IMG/VR virus record: IMGVR_UViG_3300006738_000002 | Coordinates: 1 to 20,174 of that record | Direction: 5' to 3' (one strand) | Length of the DNA: 20,174 bases | Origin: a virus | Shown here: positions 1 to 20,174 of the stretch, one piece after another | Numbering within the stretch: position 1 is the stretch's first letter | Layout: each line of letters starts with the position of its first letter | Made by a program: the position numbers and the translations under genes | Notes under the pieces: generated by a model | The model's database searches: none | Seen by the model: the letters and a program-made list of their open reading frames with translations, nothing else | Told to the model about the DNA's origin: nothing

Positions 1-123
1 GACTTTCGTGAGAACTATTTGAAAAGCATAACCAAAGAGAAGTTTGAGAATCTAAATAAACAGGAGGAAAAAGAAAATGATAATTAAAGGTGATTGTATA
101 GAAGAATTAAAGAAACTTCCAGA
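1..123. repeat. Terminal direct repeat (left copy) marking a circular molecule
   Basis: Bases 1-123 are identical to 20052-20174. The repeat cuts through the end of a small gene and the start of the methyltransferase without regard to function, as expected when a circular contig is written with an assembler overlap. The unique circle is therefore about 20,051 bp. A genuine terminally redundant linear genome is possible but less likely, because reading frames run smoothly across the join. Confidence 0.9.
49..80 (+). repeat. 32-bp direct repeat, left flank of methyltransferase cassette
   Basis: Bases 49-80 match 1337-1368 exactly. Each copy holds the last codons of one gene (Asn-Leu-Asn-Lys-Gln-Glu-Glu-Lys-Glu-Asn), the AGGAGG ribosome-binding site and the ATG of the next gene. 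Together the copies bracket the methyltransferase. Confidence 0.9.
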
Positions 124-1372
124 AAATTCTGTTGATGCGATTGTAACTGACCCTCCTTATGGTTTAGAGTTTATGGGTAAGAATTGGGATTATGGAGTTC
201 CAGGAAAGAAATTCTTTATTGAAATGATTAGAGTTCTAAAACCAGGAGGTTTTCTCTTAGCATTTGGAGGAACACGAACTTATCATAGATTAGCCTGTGG
301 AATTGAAGATGCAGGTTTTGAAATAAGAGATTGTATTCAATGGCTTTATGGTTCAGGATTCCCAAAGAGTTTGAATATTGGAAAACAGATTGATAAGATT
401 GAAGGTAATGAGAGGGAGGTTGTTGGAACTAAAAGATGTGGAATTGCTGAAAGTCCATTTGGAAGTTGTGCTGAAGAATTGAAACATATTCCTGAAACAA
501 AAGGAAACTCAGATTGGGAAGGTTGGGGAACAGCACTTAAACCAGCAAACGAACCTATAGTTGTTGCACGAAAACCATTAAGTGAAAAGAATGTTGCTTT
601 GAATGTTTTGAAGTGGGGAACAGCAGGGATTAATATTGATGAGTGTAGAATAAATTATCAATCTGAAAAAGATATGGAAGGAGCAATATGGGGTAGTCAT
701 GGAACTTCAAATGCCGAACATAATTGGGGAATGAAAGATAAGGGAAAAAATCATTTAAGTTCTACAACTGGAAGATTCCCAGCAAACATAATCCTTGATG
801 AAGAAGCAGGAAAGATGTTGGATGAGCAGACAGGAAGTTTAGGAAATAGTTTTAGACCAAATAATATTGGAAAAGATTACAAAAGTGATGGAATGTTTGG
901 TGGTGGAAAATATAATCAAATTAGTTCTCATAATGATAAAGGAGGAGCATCTCGGTTCTTCTATTGTGCAAAGGCAAGTAAGAGTGAAAGGAATGAAGGG
1001 TTAGAAGATTTTGAGGAGAAAGAAGCAACTCAAAGAATGAATGCAAGTGAATTTAGATACGAAGAAGGGAGAGAGCCAACACCAAGAGCAAAACAATCTG
1101 TAAACAAAAACAACCACCCAACAGTTAAACCAATCAAGTTAATGGAATACTTAATTAAATTAGTTTCAAAAGAAGGTGCAACAGTTCTTGACCCATTTTT
1201 AGGTTCAGGCACAACTGCGATTGCTTGTTTAAAACAAAACAGAAAATACATAGGAATAGAAAAAGAAAAAGAATATATTAAGATAGCAGAGGCAAGATTA
1301 AAACCATTTATTGAACAAAGGAAATTATCCTTTGATAATCTAAATAAACAGGAGGAAAAAGAAAATGAATGA
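77..1372 (+). CDS. DNA methyltransferase, beta class (N6-adenine or N4-cytosine)
   Basis: This 431-residue SAM-dependent DNA methyltransferase transfers a methyl group to an exocyclic amino group of adenine or cytosine. The catalytic motif IV, DPPY, is at residues 25-28 and follows Val-Thr. The SAM-binding motif I, DPFLGSGTT, lies near residue 372, after a HPTVKP segment around residue 348. This order (IV before I) defines the beta class. DPPY favours N6-adenine, but N4-cytosine cannot be excluded. The central part (about 120-340) is probably the target-recognition region. AGGAGG lies 9 nt before the ATG. No restriction endonuclease is nearby, so it is probably an orphan enzyme that protects the element's DNA or marks it. 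The gene is bracketed by 32-bp direct repeats, suggesting it was gained as a cassette. Confidence 0.93.
   Translation: MIIKGDCIEELKKLPENSVDAIVTDPPYGLEFMGKNWDYGVPGKKFFIEMIRVLKPGGFLLAFGGTRTYHRLACGIEDAGFEIRDCIQWLYGSGFPKSLNIGKQIDKIEGNEREVVGTKRCGIAESPFGSCAEELKHIPETKGNSDWEGWGTALKPANEPIVVARKPLSEKNVALNVLKWGTAGINIDECRINYQSEKDMEGAIWGSHGTSNAEHNWGMKDKGKNHLSSTTGRFPANIILDEEAGKMLDEQTGSLGNSFRPNNIGKDYKSDGMFGGGKYNQISSHNDKGGASRFFYCAKASKSERNEGLEDFEEKEATQRMNASEFRYEEGREPTPRAKQSVNKNNHPTVKPIKLMEYLIKLVSKEGATVLDPFLGSGTTAIACLKQNRKYIGIEKEKEYIKIAEARLKPFIEQRKLSFDNLNKQEEKENE
1337..1368 (+). repeat. 32-bp direct repeat, right flank of methyltransferase cassette
   Basis: This is the perfect second copy of 49-80. It forms the C-terminal codons of the methyltransferase and the ribosome-binding site and start codon of the 113-residue gene. 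Recombination between the copies would remove the methyltransferase and leave both neighbours intact and in register. Confidence 0.9.
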
Positions 1373-3161: not shown

Positions 3162-3356
3162 ATGGTAAAAATAGAAAAAAATCAATATAACCTTGTATTT
3201 TTAATTGTTTTATTCATTTCAATGTCTGTCTCAATCATTTCTCAAACTCTTGGGAAGTGGGCTTTGTTGTCTTATGTCTTAATAATGTATTTCGGAAGTT
3301 GGTGGTTAATTGACAAAGAAATATTTGAGAAATTATTTAAGGAATTAGATGGCTAA
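3162..3356 (+). CDS. Small two-helix membrane protein
   Basis: This 64-residue protein has two predicted transmembrane helices, at residues about 10-28 and 33-51, joined by a very short turn around SQTLGKW. The C-terminus is charged. It overlaps the integrase start by 8 nt, which suggests translational coupling. Its function is not recognisable. The start has only a weak AAAAG before it. Its size and topology resemble small viral membrane proteins, but nothing specific links it to a role. Confidence 0.6.
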   Translation: MVKIEKNQYNLVFLIVLFISMSVSIISQTLGKWALLSYVLIMYFGSWWLIDKEIFEKLFKELDG

Positions 3357-5331: not shown

Positions 5332-5658
5332 TTAAAACCCACCTCCTTGACCGAACATCCCCATTTTTCTTGCTTGGAAGATTAATAATGCTAATGCTCC
5401 GAAAAGAAGAACAACTGCCGAGATAAGCAATATGGTTGGGATTTTATTCCCTACATTTGCGATACCTGATGTCAGATTTGTAGCCAAATTATTTGCAGAA
5501 TTGTCATAAGTTCCACCAGAAGTCAATAAATTTGCTCCTAAAATAGTGTCAATTAAAACATAACCAATCACTACTGTGAAAATTAAACCAATCATACCAA
5601 CAACAAGACCAGAGACAACTTGTCCCTTTTTATTAGTTCCTAATTTTCTTAATTTCAT
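5332..5658 (-). CDS. Small two-helix membrane protein, major capsid protein candidate
   Basis: This 108-residue protein has a basic N-terminus with NKKGQ (residues 9-13), two long hydrophobic helices (about 14-42 and 73-96), a polar Gly/Ser/Asn/Thr linker and a Gly-rich tail. NKKGQ followed by a hydrophobic helix looks like a class III (archaeal pilin-like) leader that may be cleaved. Spindle-shaped archaeal viruses (SSV VP1/VP3, His1, PAV1/TPV1) build their shells from small proteins with two such helices, so this is the best capsid candidate. It is the only gene of the minus arc with a clear private TATA promoter, as expected for an abundant protein. An archaeal pilin-like or holin-like protein is the main alternative. 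Confidence 0.7.
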   Translation of the reverse strand: MKLRKLGTNKKGQVVSGLVVGMIGLIFTVVIGYVLIDTILGANLLTSGGTYDNSANNLATNLTSGIANVGNKIPTILLISAVVLLFGALALLIFQARKMGMFGQGGGF

Positions 5659-12840: not shown

Positions 12841-13638
12841 TTATCTTGAAAGCAATTTTCTTATTCCTCCTGTTTCCTTATCAGGAGGTGGTTGTGAGAA
12901 ACTCCCTTTTGTTTCTGTGATTTGCATGTGTTGTCTTAAACTTCTTCTCTCTTGTCCGTTCCATGCACGATTATAAGTTGAGTGGATTGTGTCTTGAACA
13001 ACCCTTAAAATAAAACTGAACCTTTTCATTTTATAGTTCATCAATTCCTTTTTTATCTTTGCAAGTTCAACCTCAATGTTGTCCTCAACAGTCATCAATA
13101 ATTCTTTTGTTAAGTCCTCAAGGTTTGCAGGTTGTCCAATCATTTCCTTCACGAACTTCTTGACCTCTGCTTTTTTGTTTAATCGTTTCATCAATTCTTC
13201 TCTGCAATCTTCAAAGGTTGGTTCAAGGAATATTTTCTCATAGTTCCGAAAGATTAACTCGTTCAATGTATGCGAGGCATCTCTCATCTTGTCAAGAATC
13301 ATCTCCTCCTCATAGTTACTTAATAAAGTGTTTTTGTTGACATACCAGGAAAGAAACTCTCGTATAATTTGAACCCCATAGCTTGAAAGGATCACCAAAT
13401 TTTTATCAGCAGGTTGTCTCCATTGACCATCAACCAACTCATAACTTCTTAATAAATAATCAATTCTTTTTAATTCAGGACCCAAGTCAAGTTGTTCACG
13501 AATTAAATTTGTGTCAGGTTCAGGCATTTGCATTTGGGATTGTGCATTTGACAAATTGGAAACATTTGTTTGTGCCTCTGCCTCTTGCAGTTTTGAATTA
13601 TAGAAGTTCATTAATTCTTCTTCCCTTGATTCTTTCAT
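12841..13638 (-). CDS. Helical, charged structural or scaffold-like protein
   Basis: This 265-residue soluble protein is rich in Glu, Lys, Gln and Leu, without a signal peptide or membrane helix. It has an N-terminal helix (about 2-35), a Gln/Pro stretch, then long amphipathic helices through about 225, and a Gln/Pro/Asp-rich linker before GGIRKLLSR. The AGGAGG in its last codons serves the downstream fibre-like gene. It overlaps the 776-residue gene by an ATGA junction. No family is recognised. The position suggests an internal virion or assembly protein. Confidence 0.75.
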   Translation of the reverse strand: MKESREEELMNFYNSKLQEAEAQTNVSNLSNAQSQMQMPEPDTNLIREQLDLGPELKRIDYLLRSYELVDGQWRQPADKNLVILSSYGVQIIREFLSWYVNKNTLLSNYEEEMILDKMRDASHTLNELIFRNYEKIFLEPTFEDCREELMKRLNKKAEVKKFVKEMIGQPANLEDLTKELLMTVEDNIEVELAKIKKELMNYKMKRFSFILRVVQDTIHSTYNRAWNGQERRSLRQHMQITETKGSFSQPPPDKETGGIRKLLSR

Positions 13639-15965
13639 CTTTTCTTTTTCCTCTTGGTTGTTTTAATTCTTTTTGCTCGTTGAATTTCTCCAATCTCTCC
13701 TGCCTTGCTTAATCTGAACTTGCTTTTTTCAATGAATGTCAATGGTCCTGCAATCTTTGAACTTGCCTTTGGTAATCTAAACCCTGCAGGTATACCAACC
13801 GAACCTTTTTTTGCTCCCTTGATTCTAAATGTTGCACCAAGAGTTGATGCAGTGATTCCTTTTCCGATTGAGACTGCTTTTGAAATGTCTCCAGTTATTC
13901 CAACGGTTTTAAATTCTCCTTTTCTTCTGACTTCAACTGTAAACAATCCCCCTTTCTTTTTCTTTTTCTTTCTCTTGCCTAATTTAAAACCAAATCCTGC
14001 AGAAATTGGTGTTCTTGGTTTTTTTGGACTAACTCCAATAAAGATTGAAGGTTGAGGTTTTTGAATTTGGATTGTTTTTAATTGTAATTTCAACGCCTGT
14101 GCAGATTTTTGTGCAGTCTTTAAAGATGGAGTTTGTTTTGTAATTTGTAAAGGTTTTTGTTTTTGTTTTTGTTTTGTTTTTGTTTGGAATCTCTGCCCAG
14201 TCTTTACTTTAATTAAACTCTTTTGTTGTGTTCTTGTCATCTCCAGGGTTGTAGGTGTAGTTAATCTTTTTTTTGTTACAGAAAGTTTTTGAGATGTTTG
14301 AGTAACAATTTGAAGGGGTTGAGTAACAATTTGAATGGAAGGTGTAGAAATTACTTGAGAAGGGGTTTGAATCATTAAAGGTTTTGGGGTTTTTATTATA
14401 GTTGTTGTTGGTTTTAATTGTTCTATTGAACCACTTATCAAATCAGATGTTTTTGTAATTGTTTTTTGAGATTTTTGTTTTAAATTTATCTTTTTAGTCA
14501 ATCCTTTTTGAGTAAACGCATCCAAATCTATCTCAACCCCTTTAATATTAAACCTTTCAACTTTAATATTCCTTTTAATTCCCGAACTATCTACTTTTAT
14601 TTGGGTTCTTCCCCTCCCTGAACCAAAACCTGTAAACCCTGGTTTGATTTGTCTTGAAACTCCTCCCACAATAGATTTTTCAAGATTTAAACCACCAAAA
14701 AATTCTGCATCCAGTCCCTTAGGGGATATTTCAATTACTGATTTTGTCCTTGAGATTATATCTCCTTTTGTTCCTCCTGTTTTGCTTAAAACTTCCGATA
14801 ATTTTAACGAATCAAAACCTTTGGTCCTTGTTACTTTTCCAGGTTGACCTTTTATTATAGACTCCACCCTGACAGTTTCAAGGGTTTCTGTAAATTTTCC
14901 TGCCCTATAAGTTGTTTTTGGTGCAGTGATGTCTGTGATTGCCCCTCCAAATACATCATCCCCTGAACCTTTTAAAATTTGTTTAGAGGATATAAAAACA
15001 TCATCAAAAACTTTTTCTTTCCCTGCTATTGTTTTAAATGTAGTCCCTCCTTTTTGCGTCTTTAAAGATAAAACTTCAAATTGAAGGTCTTGAATATTTC
15101 TTTGAGATTGTAATGCTCCGAAAGTTCCTGACCTCACTTTCAAGGGAGTAAATGCAGACGCACTTTCAACGAAGGCAGTTTTAACCCCTACATTAGAGGC
15201 AGATGAAAAAAACCCCACTGTTCCCCCTGCAAGAAGTGGAGCAAAAACCATGGATTGTCCAAGAATTGAGCCAGTAGTTGAGGGTAAATCTCTTATTTCC
15301 CCCAATTTCCCTCCAAACTCAAATGTCTTTCTATCTTTCAGTGTTCCATCCTCTTTAATTTCTAATTTTTGAGTTCCAAGTTGGGATGCGAGATTAATTG
15401 CCCCCTCTACTGTTGAAATTCCTGTCTTTGCAATTCCTTCCCCTACCTCTTTAAACCTTCCTTTAATGACTTCCTTTTTTGACATCTCTTTTTCCTTATC
15501 AGATAAACCTATTCTAAATCTTTCAGAAAAAGATGAGTCTCTTTCCTCAATTAAATTTCTTGTTGTCGTGCTTGGGGAAATTGTGACAATTTTTTGTTCA
15601 GGAATTGACATCTGCAATCGTTCCTCTTGTGCAGTTGGTTTTTTCCTAAATCTGACAGTAGTCTCAAATTGTTTCTGTTCAGTGATTGCTTTTTGCCGTC
15701 TCTGTTCTTCTGCTCTTGCCTGTTCTTCTGCTTGAAGTCTCGCTTGTTCTTCTGCTCTTCGTTGTGCCTCTGCTTGTGCTTGTGCCTGTGCAATTGAAGT
15801 CCCTGAACCTCCACCCCCTCGCCTTATAAATCTTGTCCGTCCAGGGTCTGAAGGTTGGTCTGGTCTGCTTTGAAAAACTTCGGTAGTTCCACCCTGTCCA
15901 TCAGAAATAAGAACTCCACCTCTTGCACCAGTTCCAACTGCTTGGCCTTGATTAGAATGAGACAT
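13635..15965 (-). CDS. Large multi-part structural protein with coiled coil and basic C-terminus
   Basis: This 776-residue protein has a Gly/Gln-rich N-terminus (1-56) and an Ala/Gln/Glu/Arg coiled coil (57-97). A hydrophobic segment at 231-256 may insert into a membrane. A long T/Q/K/P-rich region follows (about 485-640) with 7-residue QIVTQPL-like repeats. Next are a Lys run (KRKKKKKKGG, about 663) and a small strand-rich domain (672-720, FTVEVRRKG to GATFRI), and it ends in KRKKKR. No enzymatic motif is seen. It is probably a virion core or membrane-genome linker. No SD precedes ATG 15965; translation probably depends on the 26-codon upstream frame that ends 14 nt inside it. Confidence 0.78.
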   Translation of the reverse strand: MSHSNQGQAVGTGARGGVLISDGQGGTTEVFQSRPDQPSDPGRTRFIRRGGGGSGTSIAQAQAQAEAQRRAEEQARLQAEEQARAEEQRRQKAITEQKQFETTVRFRKKPTAQEERLQMSIPEQKIVTISPSTTTRNLIEERDSSFSERFRIGLSDKEKEMSKKEVIKGRFKEVGEGIAKTGISTVEGAINLASQLGTQKLEIKEDGTLKDRKTFEFGGKLGEIRDLPSTTGSILGQSMVFAPLLAGGTVGFFSSASNVGVKTAFVESASAFTPLKVRSGTFGALQSQRNIQDLQFEVLSLKTQKGGTTFKTIAGKEKVFDDVFISSKQILKGSGDDVFGGAITDITAPKTTYRAGKFTETLETVRVESIIKGQPGKVTRTKGFDSLKLSEVLSKTGGTKGDIISRTKSVIEISPKGLDAEFFGGLNLEKSIVGGVSRQIKPGFTGFGSGRGRTQIKVDSSGIKRNIKVERFNIKGVEIDLDAFTQKGLTKKINLKQKSQKTITKTSDLISGSIEQLKPTTTIIKTPKPLMIQTPSQVISTPSIQIVTQPLQIVTQTSQKLSVTKKRLTTPTTLEMTRTQQKSLIKVKTGQRFQTKTKQKQKQKPLQITKQTPSLKTAQKSAQALKLQLKTIQIQKPQPSIFIGVSPKKPRTPISAGFGFKLGKRKKKKKKGGLFTVEVRRKGEFKTVGITGDISKAVSIGKGITASTLGATFRIKGAKKGSVGIPAGFRLPKASSKIAGPLTFIEKSKFRLSKAGEIGEIQRAKRIKTTKRKKKR
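14298..14335. repeat. Short in-gene direct repeat, 21-bp period
   Basis: TTGAGTAACAATTTGAA occurs at 14298-14314 and 14319-14335. In the minus-strand gene it encodes a seven-residue repeat, QIVTQ plus two variable residues, within the T/Q-rich region. Confidence 0.8.
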
Positions 15966-16032
15966 TTTTTAAAATAGCAAGAAAATATAAGTGAGGGTTT
16001 AATATTTCTTCAAGTTTAATTTCTACTTCCAT
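15952..16032 (-). CDS. 26-codon leader frame coupled to the 776-residue gene
   Basis: ATG at 16032 is preceded by AGGAGG with a 10-nt spacer, the same signal as the five tiny genes upstream. It encodes 26 residues beginning MEVEIKLEEI, acidic rather than basic, and stops 14 nt inside the next gene. The following ATG at 15965 lacks a ribosome-binding site, so translation of this frame would deliver ribosomes to it. The peptide itself may have no function. Confidence 0.55.
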   Translation of the reverse strand: MEVEIKLEEILNPHLYFLAILKNVSF

Positions 16033-16033
16033 A

Positions 16034-16183
16034 TTATTTTTTCCTCCTTTTCACCATTAACCTTGCCCTTTTTTTATAAAGACCTATTAATTTCCTTTCT
16101 GCAACATTTGAACTAAGTTTTTTATTATTTGCAACAGAAGTTATTTTCTTTTGTAAACTTGTTAAAGTAATTTTTCTTACCAT
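16034..16183 (-). CDS. Tiny very basic protein, 49 residues
   Basis: The 49 residues begin MVRKITLTSL and end LMVKRRKK, with net strong positive charge and a likely helix over 25-45. AGGAGG lies 10 nt before the ATG, and the preceding stop is in TAAAATG context. Its own last codons AGG AGG AAA AAA TAA form the ribosome-binding site of the next frame. By analogy with the small basic DNA-binding virion protein VP2 of SSV1 it could coat DNA, but no homology is visible. Confidence 0.72.
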   Translation of the reverse strand: MVRKITLTSLQKKITSVANNKKLSSNVAERKLIGLYKKRARLMVKRRKK

Positions 16184-16184
16184 T

Positions 16185-16448
16185 TTATTTTTTCCTCCTT
16201 TTCATTTCGTTTAAAATATTTCTCCCCCAATAATATCCTGTTCCCTTTTTCATTCTTGATATTTTTTTTGTCCTCGTATTTTTTATAGTAATATTTGTAT
16301 TTGCATTTCCCACAGGATTTCTCTTAATATAAGCCCTCACTCTTTCTTTATTGGGTAATGGAATTGATTGCGTCCTTGTAAAATTCCCATAAGGATTTCT
16401 TTTTGTAGGTTTTTTTGAACCTGTTTGAATATTAACAATATATGCCAT
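16185..16448 (-). CDS. Small basic protein, 87 residues
   Basis: This 87-residue protein begins MAYIVNIQTG, is rich in Lys, Arg, Asn and Thr, and contains VRAYIKRNPVG and TNITIKNTRTKK. It ends LNEMKRRKK. It has no membrane segment or Cys motif. Alternating beta-prone residues in the middle and a C-terminal helix suggest a small nucleic-acid-binding protein. Ribosome-binding signal and tail codons follow the array pattern. Confidence 0.75.
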   Translation of the reverse strand: MAYIVNIQTGSKKPTKRNPYGNFTRTQSIPLPNKERVRAYIKRNPVGNANTNITIKNTRTKKISRMKKGTGYYWGRNILNEMKRRKK

Positions 16449-16449
16449 C

Positions 16450-16662
16450 TTATTTTTTCCTCCTCTTCTTCAATCTCCTCATTCGTTCAGCAATAGTTAA
16501 TTCCTTATCTCCATATTCATCACGAATAAATTTACTGGCTCTTTTCTTTTTTACATTAATTATTCTTATGTGTGCTTTCACAGGGGCATGAGTTCTATCA
16601 AAATGTTTGGTTGGTCTTGCCCTTCTAATATGTGCTTTTACTTTTATTATTTTTTTTACCAT
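16450..16662 (-). CDS. Small basic protein with duplicated VKAHIR motif, 70 residues
   Basis: The chosen start is ATG 16662 (MVKKIIKVK), which has AGGAGG at the array's fixed 10-nt spacing. A longer start at 16695 would overlap the preceding gene and lacks this signal. VKAHIR occurs twice, at residues 8-13 and 28-33. The second half is a Lys/Arg-rich helix with TIAERMRRLKKRRKK. The duplicated basic His motif suggests two small nucleic-acid or metal contacts. Unknown function; virion DNA packaging is inferred. Confidence 0.75.
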   Translation of the reverse strand: MVKKIIKVKAHIRRARPTKHFDRTHAPVKAHIRIINVKKKRASKFIRDEYGDKELTIAERMRRLKKRRKK

Positions 16663-16663
16663 T

Positions 16664-16861
16664 TTATTTTTTCCTCCTTTTAATGAAATCTTCATATTGT
16701 TTTCTTGTTAATCTTAACTTTTTTCTTCTCAAAACTCTTTTTAATGTTCCACTTGAATAATCCTCTATTCCAACTAATCCCTTTTTATCCCATATTTCTA
16801 CAATTCCACCAGGTCTATTTGATGCCCTTCTTGTTTTACTTCTTATAATTGGTTTTACCAT
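16664..16861 (-). CDS. Small very basic protein, 65 residues
   Basis: This 65-residue protein begins MVKPIIRSKTRRASNRPGG. A short strand segment follows (IVEIWDKKGLVGIEDY), then a basic helical half (TLKRVLRRKKLRL to FIKRRKK). The Arg/Ser-rich N-terminus is protamine-like. AGGAGG with a 10-nt spacer precedes ATG 16861. No family is recognised; nucleic-acid binding is inferred from charge. Confidence 0.75.
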   Translation of the reverse strand: MVKPIIRSKTRRASNRPGGIVEIWDKKGLVGIEDYSSGTLKRVLRRKKLRLTRKQYEDFIKRRKK

Positions 16862-16876
16862 TTTATTTTTTCCTCC

Positions 16877-17041
16877 TTAATATTTTTTATAGAAACCTGA
16901 TTTTTTTAAGTTCCTTAAACTTGCTTGTGCTTTTGCCTTAGTTCCAAATACTAAACTATCTAATTTCTTTCCAGATTTGGAATAAACAACAGCATAATAG
17001 CCCTTTAACCCTTGATATTTTTTAATAACATATTTTGCCAT
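16877..17041 (-). CDS. Small basic protein, 54 residues
   Basis: The 54 residues begin MAKYVIKKYQGLKGYYAVVY and continue with SGKKLDSLVFGTKAKAQASL, ending GFYKKY. The layout is strand, strand, strand, helix. It is the only member of the array that does not end in RRKK; its stop instead overlaps the first bases of the AGGAGG for the next gene. The beta-rich pattern with a basic helix resembles small DNA-binding folds such as integrase arm-binding or AP2-type domains, but this is only pattern-level similarity. Confidence 0.72.
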   Translation of the reverse strand: MAKYVIKKYQGLKGYYAVVYSKSGKKLDSLVFGTKAKAQASLRNLKKSGFYKKY

Positions 17042-17042
17042 C

Positions 17043-17147
17043 TTATTTTTTCCTCCTTTTAGATTTAATATTTTTTGTTTTCCATCTATAAAAATAATCT
17101 TTTATAATCTCCTTGTTAAGAATCATATTATTTTTTACTTTTTCCAT
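17043..17147 (-). CDS. 34-residue basic peptide, first gene of the late operon
   Basis: This short frame begins MEKVKNNMIL and ends KSKRRKK. Its stop is one base before the next ATG (TAAGATG), and its RRKK codons are the ribosome-binding site of that gene. The ATG at 17147 directly adjoins the 15-bp palindrome, and the predicted transcript start lies about 11 nt upstream. The fit to the array pattern supports it. It may act mainly to load ribosomes onto the operon. Confidence 0.58.
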   Translation of the reverse strand: MEKVKNNMILNKEIIKDYFYRWKTKNIKSKRRKK

Positions 17148-17161
17148 GTTACAATGTAACA
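17147..17161. promoter_or_regulatory. Perfect 15-bp palindrome, likely operator of the late operon
   Basis: TGTTACAATGTAACA is a perfect inverted repeat around one central base. It overlaps the predicted minus-strand transcription start (about 17158) and abuts the first start codon. A dimeric repressor bound here would block transcription. Its half site matches GTTACA upstream of the capsid-candidate promoter. Confidence 0.55.
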
Positions 17162-17178
17162 AAATAAGGTTTTTGAAG

Positions 17179-17187
17179 TTTATATAA
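17179..17187 (-). promoter_or_regulatory. TATA box of the late operon (minus strand)
   Basis: The minus strand reads TTATATAAA here, about 29 nt before the palindrome and 40 nt before the first minus ATG. It is the only strong TATA-like element on this strand in the divergent intergenic region. Confidence 0.5.
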
Positions 17188-17240
17188 TTAACCTTTTTTT
17201 ATTATTAAAACTATTTTCACAATAAAAGCAAAAAGAAACA

Positions 17241-17249
17241 TATATAATG
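17241..17249 (+). promoter_or_regulatory. Leaderless promoter of the ATPase operon
   Basis: GAAACA (17235-17240, BRE-like) is followed immediately by TATATAATG. The TATA element starts exactly 29 nt before ATG 17270, so the transcript should begin at or next to the start codon, consistent with the lack of a ribosome-binding site. Confidence 0.65.
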
Positions 17250-17269
17250 CTTGATTTATTATTATTATT

Positions 17270-17716
17270 ATGTCAACCTGGAATAATGCAAACACTGGGA
17301 GAGTAAGTGAATGGAATGAGGGAGTTTTTAAGTCAATAAGATTGCATGAAGTTCAGGAGGCCATTAATCTTTTGAGAATGAATCCGTTGGGGACTACGGA
17401 CGGAAAATTTAATTATTCTTTAATGTTTTTGAACATAACAAATTTATATTTGGAAGGTTATTCTAAATTTTCCCCATCAGAAAGAAAAGAGGTTGATTCT
17501 TATAAGGCAGTTATTCAGGAGATTATAAATGACAACCCACCGACGACAAAAGTTCTTAAAGAAGAAATTGGAGGGACTTCTTCAACTCTTTTGGTTGACC
17601 ATCATAAAATGAAATTACTTTTGCACCTGCTTGAAGAGTATGAAAGGAAAATTAAGGACTTAAATGATAAACATGGTTTAACGACGACAAATAAACAATC
17701 AGGAGGTTTATTTTAA
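17270..17716 (+). CDS. ATPase-partner protein, unknown function
   Basis: This 148-residue soluble protein is mostly helical, with conserved-looking aromatic N-terminal residues (STWNNANTGRVSEW) and a C-terminal charged helix (residues about 112-137). No membrane segment or catalytic motif is seen. Its stop shares a base with the ATPase start (TAATG), and the two genes form an isolated two-gene operon behind a leaderless promoter. A regulator, adaptor or substrate-loading factor for the ATPase is inferred. Confidence 0.75.
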   Translation: MSTWNNANTGRVSEWNEGVFKSIRLHEVQEAINLLRMNPLGTTDGKFNYSLMFLNITNLYLEGYSKFSPSERKEVDSYKAVIQEIINDNPPTTKVLKEEIGGTSSTLLVDHHKMKLLLHLLEEYERKIKDLNDKHGLTTTNKQSGGLF

Positions 17717-20035: not shown

Positions 20036-20138
20036 AGTGTTTACTGATGAGGACTTTCGTGAGAACTATTTGAAAAGCATAACCAAAGAGAAGTTTGAGA
20101 ATCTAAATAAACAGGAGGAAAAAGAAAATGATAATTAA
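20025..20138 (+). CDS. 37-residue micro-ORF crossing the circle junction
   Basis: ATG 20025, preceded by AAAGGA, encodes 37 acidic residues starting MDIRVFTDED. They end with the NLNKQEEKEN stretch, which is also the methyltransferase's own tail. The frame continues past the join and ends at position 87 of the left copy, overlapping the methyltransferase start. The shared tail comes from the 32-bp repeat. Confidence 0.58.
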   Translation: MDIRVFTDEDFRENYLKSITKEKFENLNKQEEKENDN

Positions 20139-20174
20139 AGGTGATTGTATAGAAGAATTAAAGAAACTTCCAGA
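20052..20174. repeat. Terminal direct repeat (right copy)
   Basis: This is the exact second copy of bases 1-123. It contains the end of the 37-codon gene that starts at 20025, the AGGAGG ribosome-binding site and the first codons of the methyltransferase annotated at 77-1372. Confidence 0.9.

Follow-up and report, generated by a model that had tools for sequence, protein, structure and literature searches.

The DNA analysed here (the window) is a viral record of 20,174 nucleotides. Its ends carry an exact 123-bp terminal repeat (1-123 is identical with 20052-20174), and the record is thus a complete circular genome of 20,051 bp. The minus strand carries one long late-type operon with an array of tiny genes at its start, and the plus strand encodes methyltransferases, an ATPase, small regulatory-type proteins and a tyrosine recombinase of the Xer type (gene at 3349). 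In the window and its relatives, near-leaderless first genes are preceded at ~25-40 nt by TATA-like elements, a layout from which the host is probably archaeal. A small membrane protein, possibly the major capsid protein, is encoded at 5332-5658, and its match in the relative G010 is tandemly duplicated (L085, 17583-18255). The array and its surroundings contain the following features.

17179-17187, minus strand: TATA-like promoter element TTATATAAA (read from the sequence and by inference from archaeal promoter layout)
17148-17160, minus strand: 13-bp near-palindrome GTTACATTGTAAC abutting the first ATG, a probable operator with a counterpart in G010
17043-17147, minus strand: 34-aa basic gene without an SD, probably near-leaderless, ending in RRKK-stop (sequence, codon signal)
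16877-17041, minus strand: 54-aa basic gene whose stop precedes the signal (sequence, codon signal, single-sequence model)
16664-16861, minus strand: 65-aa basic gene ending in RRKK-stop (sequence, codon signal)
16450-16662, minus strand: 70-aa basic gene ending in RRKK-stop (sequence, codon signal)
16185-16448, minus strand: 87-aa basic gene ending in RRKK-stop (sequence, codon signal)
16034-16183, minus strand: 49-aa basic gene ending in RRKK-stop (sequence, codon signal)
15952-16032, minus strand: 26-codon ORF, not basic, opened by the sixth start (sequence)
13635-15965, minus strand: gene for a 776-aa highly basic (net +77) virion-type protein, with no SD of its own, the positional counterpart of a 903-aa gene in G010

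The small array frames look coding: for each of the seven, codon log-odds were above zero in the gene's own frame and below zero in the two alternatives. The tiny array proteins had no credible match in Pfam or PHROGs, nor did the five of them compared with NCBIfam. Two were run by tblastn against phages with no hits, scans with single window proteins were likewise empty, and no homologs of the window's tiny proteins were detected. A single-sequence prediction for the 54-aa protein gave a beta-beta-beta-alpha-alpha model (pLDDT 82) for which Foldseek returned no significant match, and the model of the 70-aa protein was poor (pTM 0.36). Likeness among the tiny proteins is confined to the first ~10 codons. 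Since no homologs were found, any duplication among them is untraceable at the protein level. Judging by charge and position, our guess is that they are small nucleic-acid-binding proteins of the virion or regulatory proteins.

The sequence AGGAGGAAAAAATAANATGG occurs six times on the minus strand, and five of the six copies are read as RRKK-stop of the preceding gene. The copies, all located by exact string match, are as follows.

17039-17057, minus strand: junction copy 1, AGGAGGAAAAAATAAGATG
16859-16877, minus strand: junction copy 2, outside the upstream coding frame, its TAA a relic
16660-16678, minus strand: junction copy 3
16446-16464, minus strand: junction copy 4
16181-16199, minus strand: junction copy 5
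16030-16048, minus strand: junction copy 6

AGGAGG-N10-ATG is present at all six starts (17041, 16861, 16662, 16448, 16183 and 16032), and a string search of the whole window found AGGAGGAAAAAATAANATG exactly at these starts and at no other site. Each copy is the same 19-20 nt, and the G after the ATG is also identical. Shuffled sequence, searched with V at the variable position and at most three mismatches, gave a mean of 0.1 junctions per window and a maximum of 1. Exact counts and translations thus agree with the original prediction, which had described six starts with AGGAGG 10 nt before the ATG and an RRKK-stop ending on five upstream proteins (34, 65, 70, 87 and 49 residues). The 54-residue protein ends at a TAT-TAA stop just 5' of the signal and so lacks the tail, yet its gene keeps AAAAAATAA, although here the signal lies beyond the coding sequence and in another frame. 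The stop-to-start gap is 1 nt at five array junctions and 15 nt at the remaining one, and the SD lies inside the 3' end of the upstream gene at five of the six. Structure is weak in the array start regions, and the same holds for several other starts of this genome. Among 84,980 scanned prokaryote genomes, AAAGGAGGAAAAAATAANATGG turned up 8 times and never in archaea; it is therefore not a general archaeal start signal. That the small frames are untranslated and the repeat is an RNA or DNA element would accord with the missing homologs, but this is scarcely credible given the in-frame codon signal in every small frame and the SD before six of them; Rfam gave no match, and an Rfam RNA element was rejected.

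In archaea, termination-reinitiation is an established process where the upstream 3' end holds the SD and the gap is very short; experiments in Haloferax volcanii and E. coli have demonstrated it (PMC6728339, PMC10666635). The 1-nt gaps and the position of the SD in the array fit this process. Ribosomes would then pass along the mRNA from one gene to the next, so that the tiny genes would be co-expressed with the large protein. The 26-codon ORF and the 776-aa gene overlap by 14 nt at the latter's start, and the ORF is probably a coupling leader, from which the 776-aa gene, having no SD, would take its ribosomes. The array shares with known translational coupling an SD in the 3' end of the upstream gene and a stop and start within a few nucleotides. 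However, known pairs have varied sequences, whereas the window uses one junction six times. Overlap of an SD with an upstream coding end is itself ordinary; what is unusual is the copying of one junction.

The original prediction knew of no described system built in this way, which is too strong, as the start-associated sequences (SAS) of cluster K mycobacteriophages are the nearest described precedent (Pope et al. 2011, PMC3203893). SAS are SD-containing start repeats within which the upstream stop codon can lie; like the array junction, they are short repeats placed before many unrelated genes of one virus group and rare elsewhere, and that account gives their function as unproven (PMC3203893). 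The defining arrangement, an SD-containing repeat directly before several unrelated genes, is found in the window array. The differences lie in layout: SAS are described there as GGGATAGGAGCCC, placed 3-7 bp before the start, distributed over half the genome and in part accompanied by inverted repeats, whereas the window junction has an A-rich spacer, lies 10 nt from the start, is limited to one gene row and is read as a shared protein tail, a feature that does not figure in that description of SAS. The SAS consensus had no match in the window with up to three mismatches. Mobile regulatory cassettes of T4-type phages, consisting of promoters and stem-loops between genes, are reportedly described by Arbiol and co-workers (2010). 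They too are said to be short intergenic regulatory sequences thought to favour gene shuffling, but the window junction is only a translation signal overlapping a coding end.

In six genomes, 116 of the 120 close junctions that have an SD place it within the coding end of the upstream gene, with a 1-nt gap the second commonest distance, and the frame of the SD sets the tail: AGG-AGG gives RR, other frames give GG or EE/KE, and a plus-strand junction of the window gives QEEKEN. Among homologous tiny proteins of G001, G008 and G009 the cores are kept (for example GKHKR, or a ribbon-helix-helix-like domain) and the tails differ, reading RRKK, KKRLK and LKKRK in one case and KYE, KRSKK and KRSTL in the other. 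Since the SD frame decides the tail and homologous cores carry different ones, the basic tail is probably a by-product; RRKK would be tolerated where the SD is in frame as AGG-AGG rather than being a selected feature. Selection at the protein level, for instance for a nucleic-acid-binding or interaction tail of co-packaged proteins, might account for a tail common to five strongly basic proteins and for the KRKKKR C-terminus of the 776-aa protein. We regard it as improbable, because the 54-aa member retains the nucleotide signal without the tail, the homologs' tails differ and another junction of the same genome yields an acidic tail; a protein-level tail motif was rejected. The proposal that the shared tail stems from a translation signal is therefore upheld, both by the untranslated signal at the 54-aa gene and by the acidic, differently framed tail at the other SD junction. 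That the exact signal is a conserved system was not supported: the homologs in G001, G008 and G009 keep the core and lose signal and tail. This is the outcome that the original prediction had itself named as refuting, although it applies to the relatives' tiny proteins, the window's own having no detectable homologs.

Six complete relatives (G001, G002, G003, G008, G009 and G010, with end repeats of 70-127 bp) were available, pulled out first by the junction pattern and then by protein scans. An ATPase, a large surface protein and a ~265-aa structural-type protein are common to the group formed with the window, not every pair sharing all three at E 0.01. The closest relative is G010, with 14 matched genes at ~30-50% amino acid identity and a largely similar arrangement. 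There, GTAACATTGTTAC (L085, 11591-11603) occupies the matching place before the 903-aa gene. The window order is TATA element and GTTACATTGTAAC followed by the array, whereas that of G010 is TATA element, GTAACATTGTTAC and an SD of its own followed by the 903-aa gene; this large structural-type gene stands directly behind the operator, 73 bp from the divergent gene, with no array. The position of the near-palindromic operator is conserved between the two, and the letters of its arms are changed. No array junction was found in G010 with up to three mismatches allowed. In G001, G008 and G009 the large gene likewise adjoins the divergent promoter, and the block of tiny genes is found at another site, headed by a second copy of the same promoter unit. 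As the large gene adjoins the promoter in all four relatives, the array in the window is most simply explained as having been inserted, or relocated, between the operator and the large gene. The expectation that gene number would vary between relatives was thus supported, with G010 lacking the whole array and its signal.

The promoter unit, TTTATATA...GTTATACATGG, is duplicated in G001 (L054, 6712-6745 and 15657-15690; 34/34 bp identical) and also in G008 and G009, with one copy before the giant basic gene and the other before the tiny-gene block. In G003 (L017, 12229-12291) a 20-residue protamine-like ORF, MARKKARKKKRVGRPRKKRR, with an AT-hook-like core stands behind the same junction as in the array, and in G002 (L057, 21849-22661) tandem imperfect repeats run across two related genes.

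Six copies of one junction in the window and none in the closest relative suggest that the row was recently built by copying. Our main reading, to which we give a probability of about 0.6, is that the array is lineage-specific, was built by copying or recombining short gene junctions and is translated by termination-reinitiation. About seven tiny, mostly very basic genes would form a lineage-specific block between the late promoter/operator and the large virion-type gene, and the junctions would be identical because they are copies of one another. Growth of the array would have come from duplication or from short junctions recombining, and every gene would bring the start signal of its successor.

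Pure convergence is a less likely explanation, but one that deserves real weight. In a compact AT-rich virus with lysine-rich tiny proteins, an SD forced into the RR frame would make RRKK-stop with a 1-nt gap the commonest strong junction without any copying. The SD placement and gap distances given above are in keeping with this, and AAA makes up 79% of the lysine codons in the tiny genes, so that ten AAA in ten are unremarkable (p 0.10). In addition, the array spacer occurs in 1-2 copies in non-homologous tiny genes of each of three other group viruses, and single RRKK-stop junctions exist in unrelated phages; some of the identity may thus be convergence on an A-rich start region. However, the junction stays identical where it is out of frame, at the 54-aa gene. 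Moreover, among 33 AGGAGG starts in the six relatives the array spacer follows in four, all in tiny-gene blocks, and other spacers follow in 29; against this 12% background, six of nine in the window has a probability of ~2e-4. In total the AAAAAATAAN spacer follows AGGAGG ten times in the seven genomes, only in tiny-gene blocks and six times in the window, and just one of 19 unrelated contigs with at least four AGGAGG starts has even two identical ones.

A second type of junction, on the plus strand, also bears on this choice.

43-80, plus strand: second junction copy A, ..AATCTAAATAAACAGGAGGAAAAAGAAAATGA, read NLNKQEEKEN by the upstream gene (37/38 bp identical with copy B)
77-1372, plus strand: N4/N6 DNA methyltransferase gene, between the two copies (sequence)
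1331-1368, plus strand: second junction copy B, containing the SD of the 113-aa gene at 1365 (37/38 bp identical with copy A)

The copies match over 38 bp at 97% (blastn E 7e-12), and copy A recurs at 20094-20131 via the terminal repeat. Being flanked by the duplicated junction, the methyltransferase shares its C-terminus, NLNKQEEKEN, with the unrelated gene before it; the tail is acidic and the SD is in a different frame from that of the array. The core of this junction occurs once each in two unrelated contigs, which is not informative. Taken together, the intact out-of-frame spacer at the 54-aa gene, the varied spacers of the relatives and this second junction favour copying over pure convergence, and the same copying process may have left the duplicated junction around the methyltransferase gene. 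The notion of modular insertion in the original prediction therefore stands in part, for the gene flanked by this second junction.

A stronger version treats the junction as a connector that moves and is reused in this lineage, identical junctions recombining so that genes come and go; as each holds the next gene's ribosome-binding site within the final codons of its predecessor, unrelated proteins would be left with a common tail as a scar of assembly. This version seems to us rather doubtful. Very unlikely is a dedicated recombination site at which a recombinase loads gene cassettes as in integrons. Identical junctions between genes, the Xer-type recombinase gene and a methyltransferase gene between duplicated junction copies could be cited for it, but the array has no inverted repeats (0 pairs in 15900-17300, on which basis integron-like attC sites were rejected) and its junction consists of no more than an SD and an A-rich spacer.

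Recombination between the copies of the second junction would cleanly delete the methyltransferase gene. Viruses commonly carry arrays of tiny orphan genes, mostly of obscure origin; the junctions described here may record how one was assembled. The case separates a functional-looking protein feature, the shared basic tail, from the translation signal behind it, a caution for annotators that common short tails need not mean common function, and it offers a testable model of gene gain in archaeal viruses.
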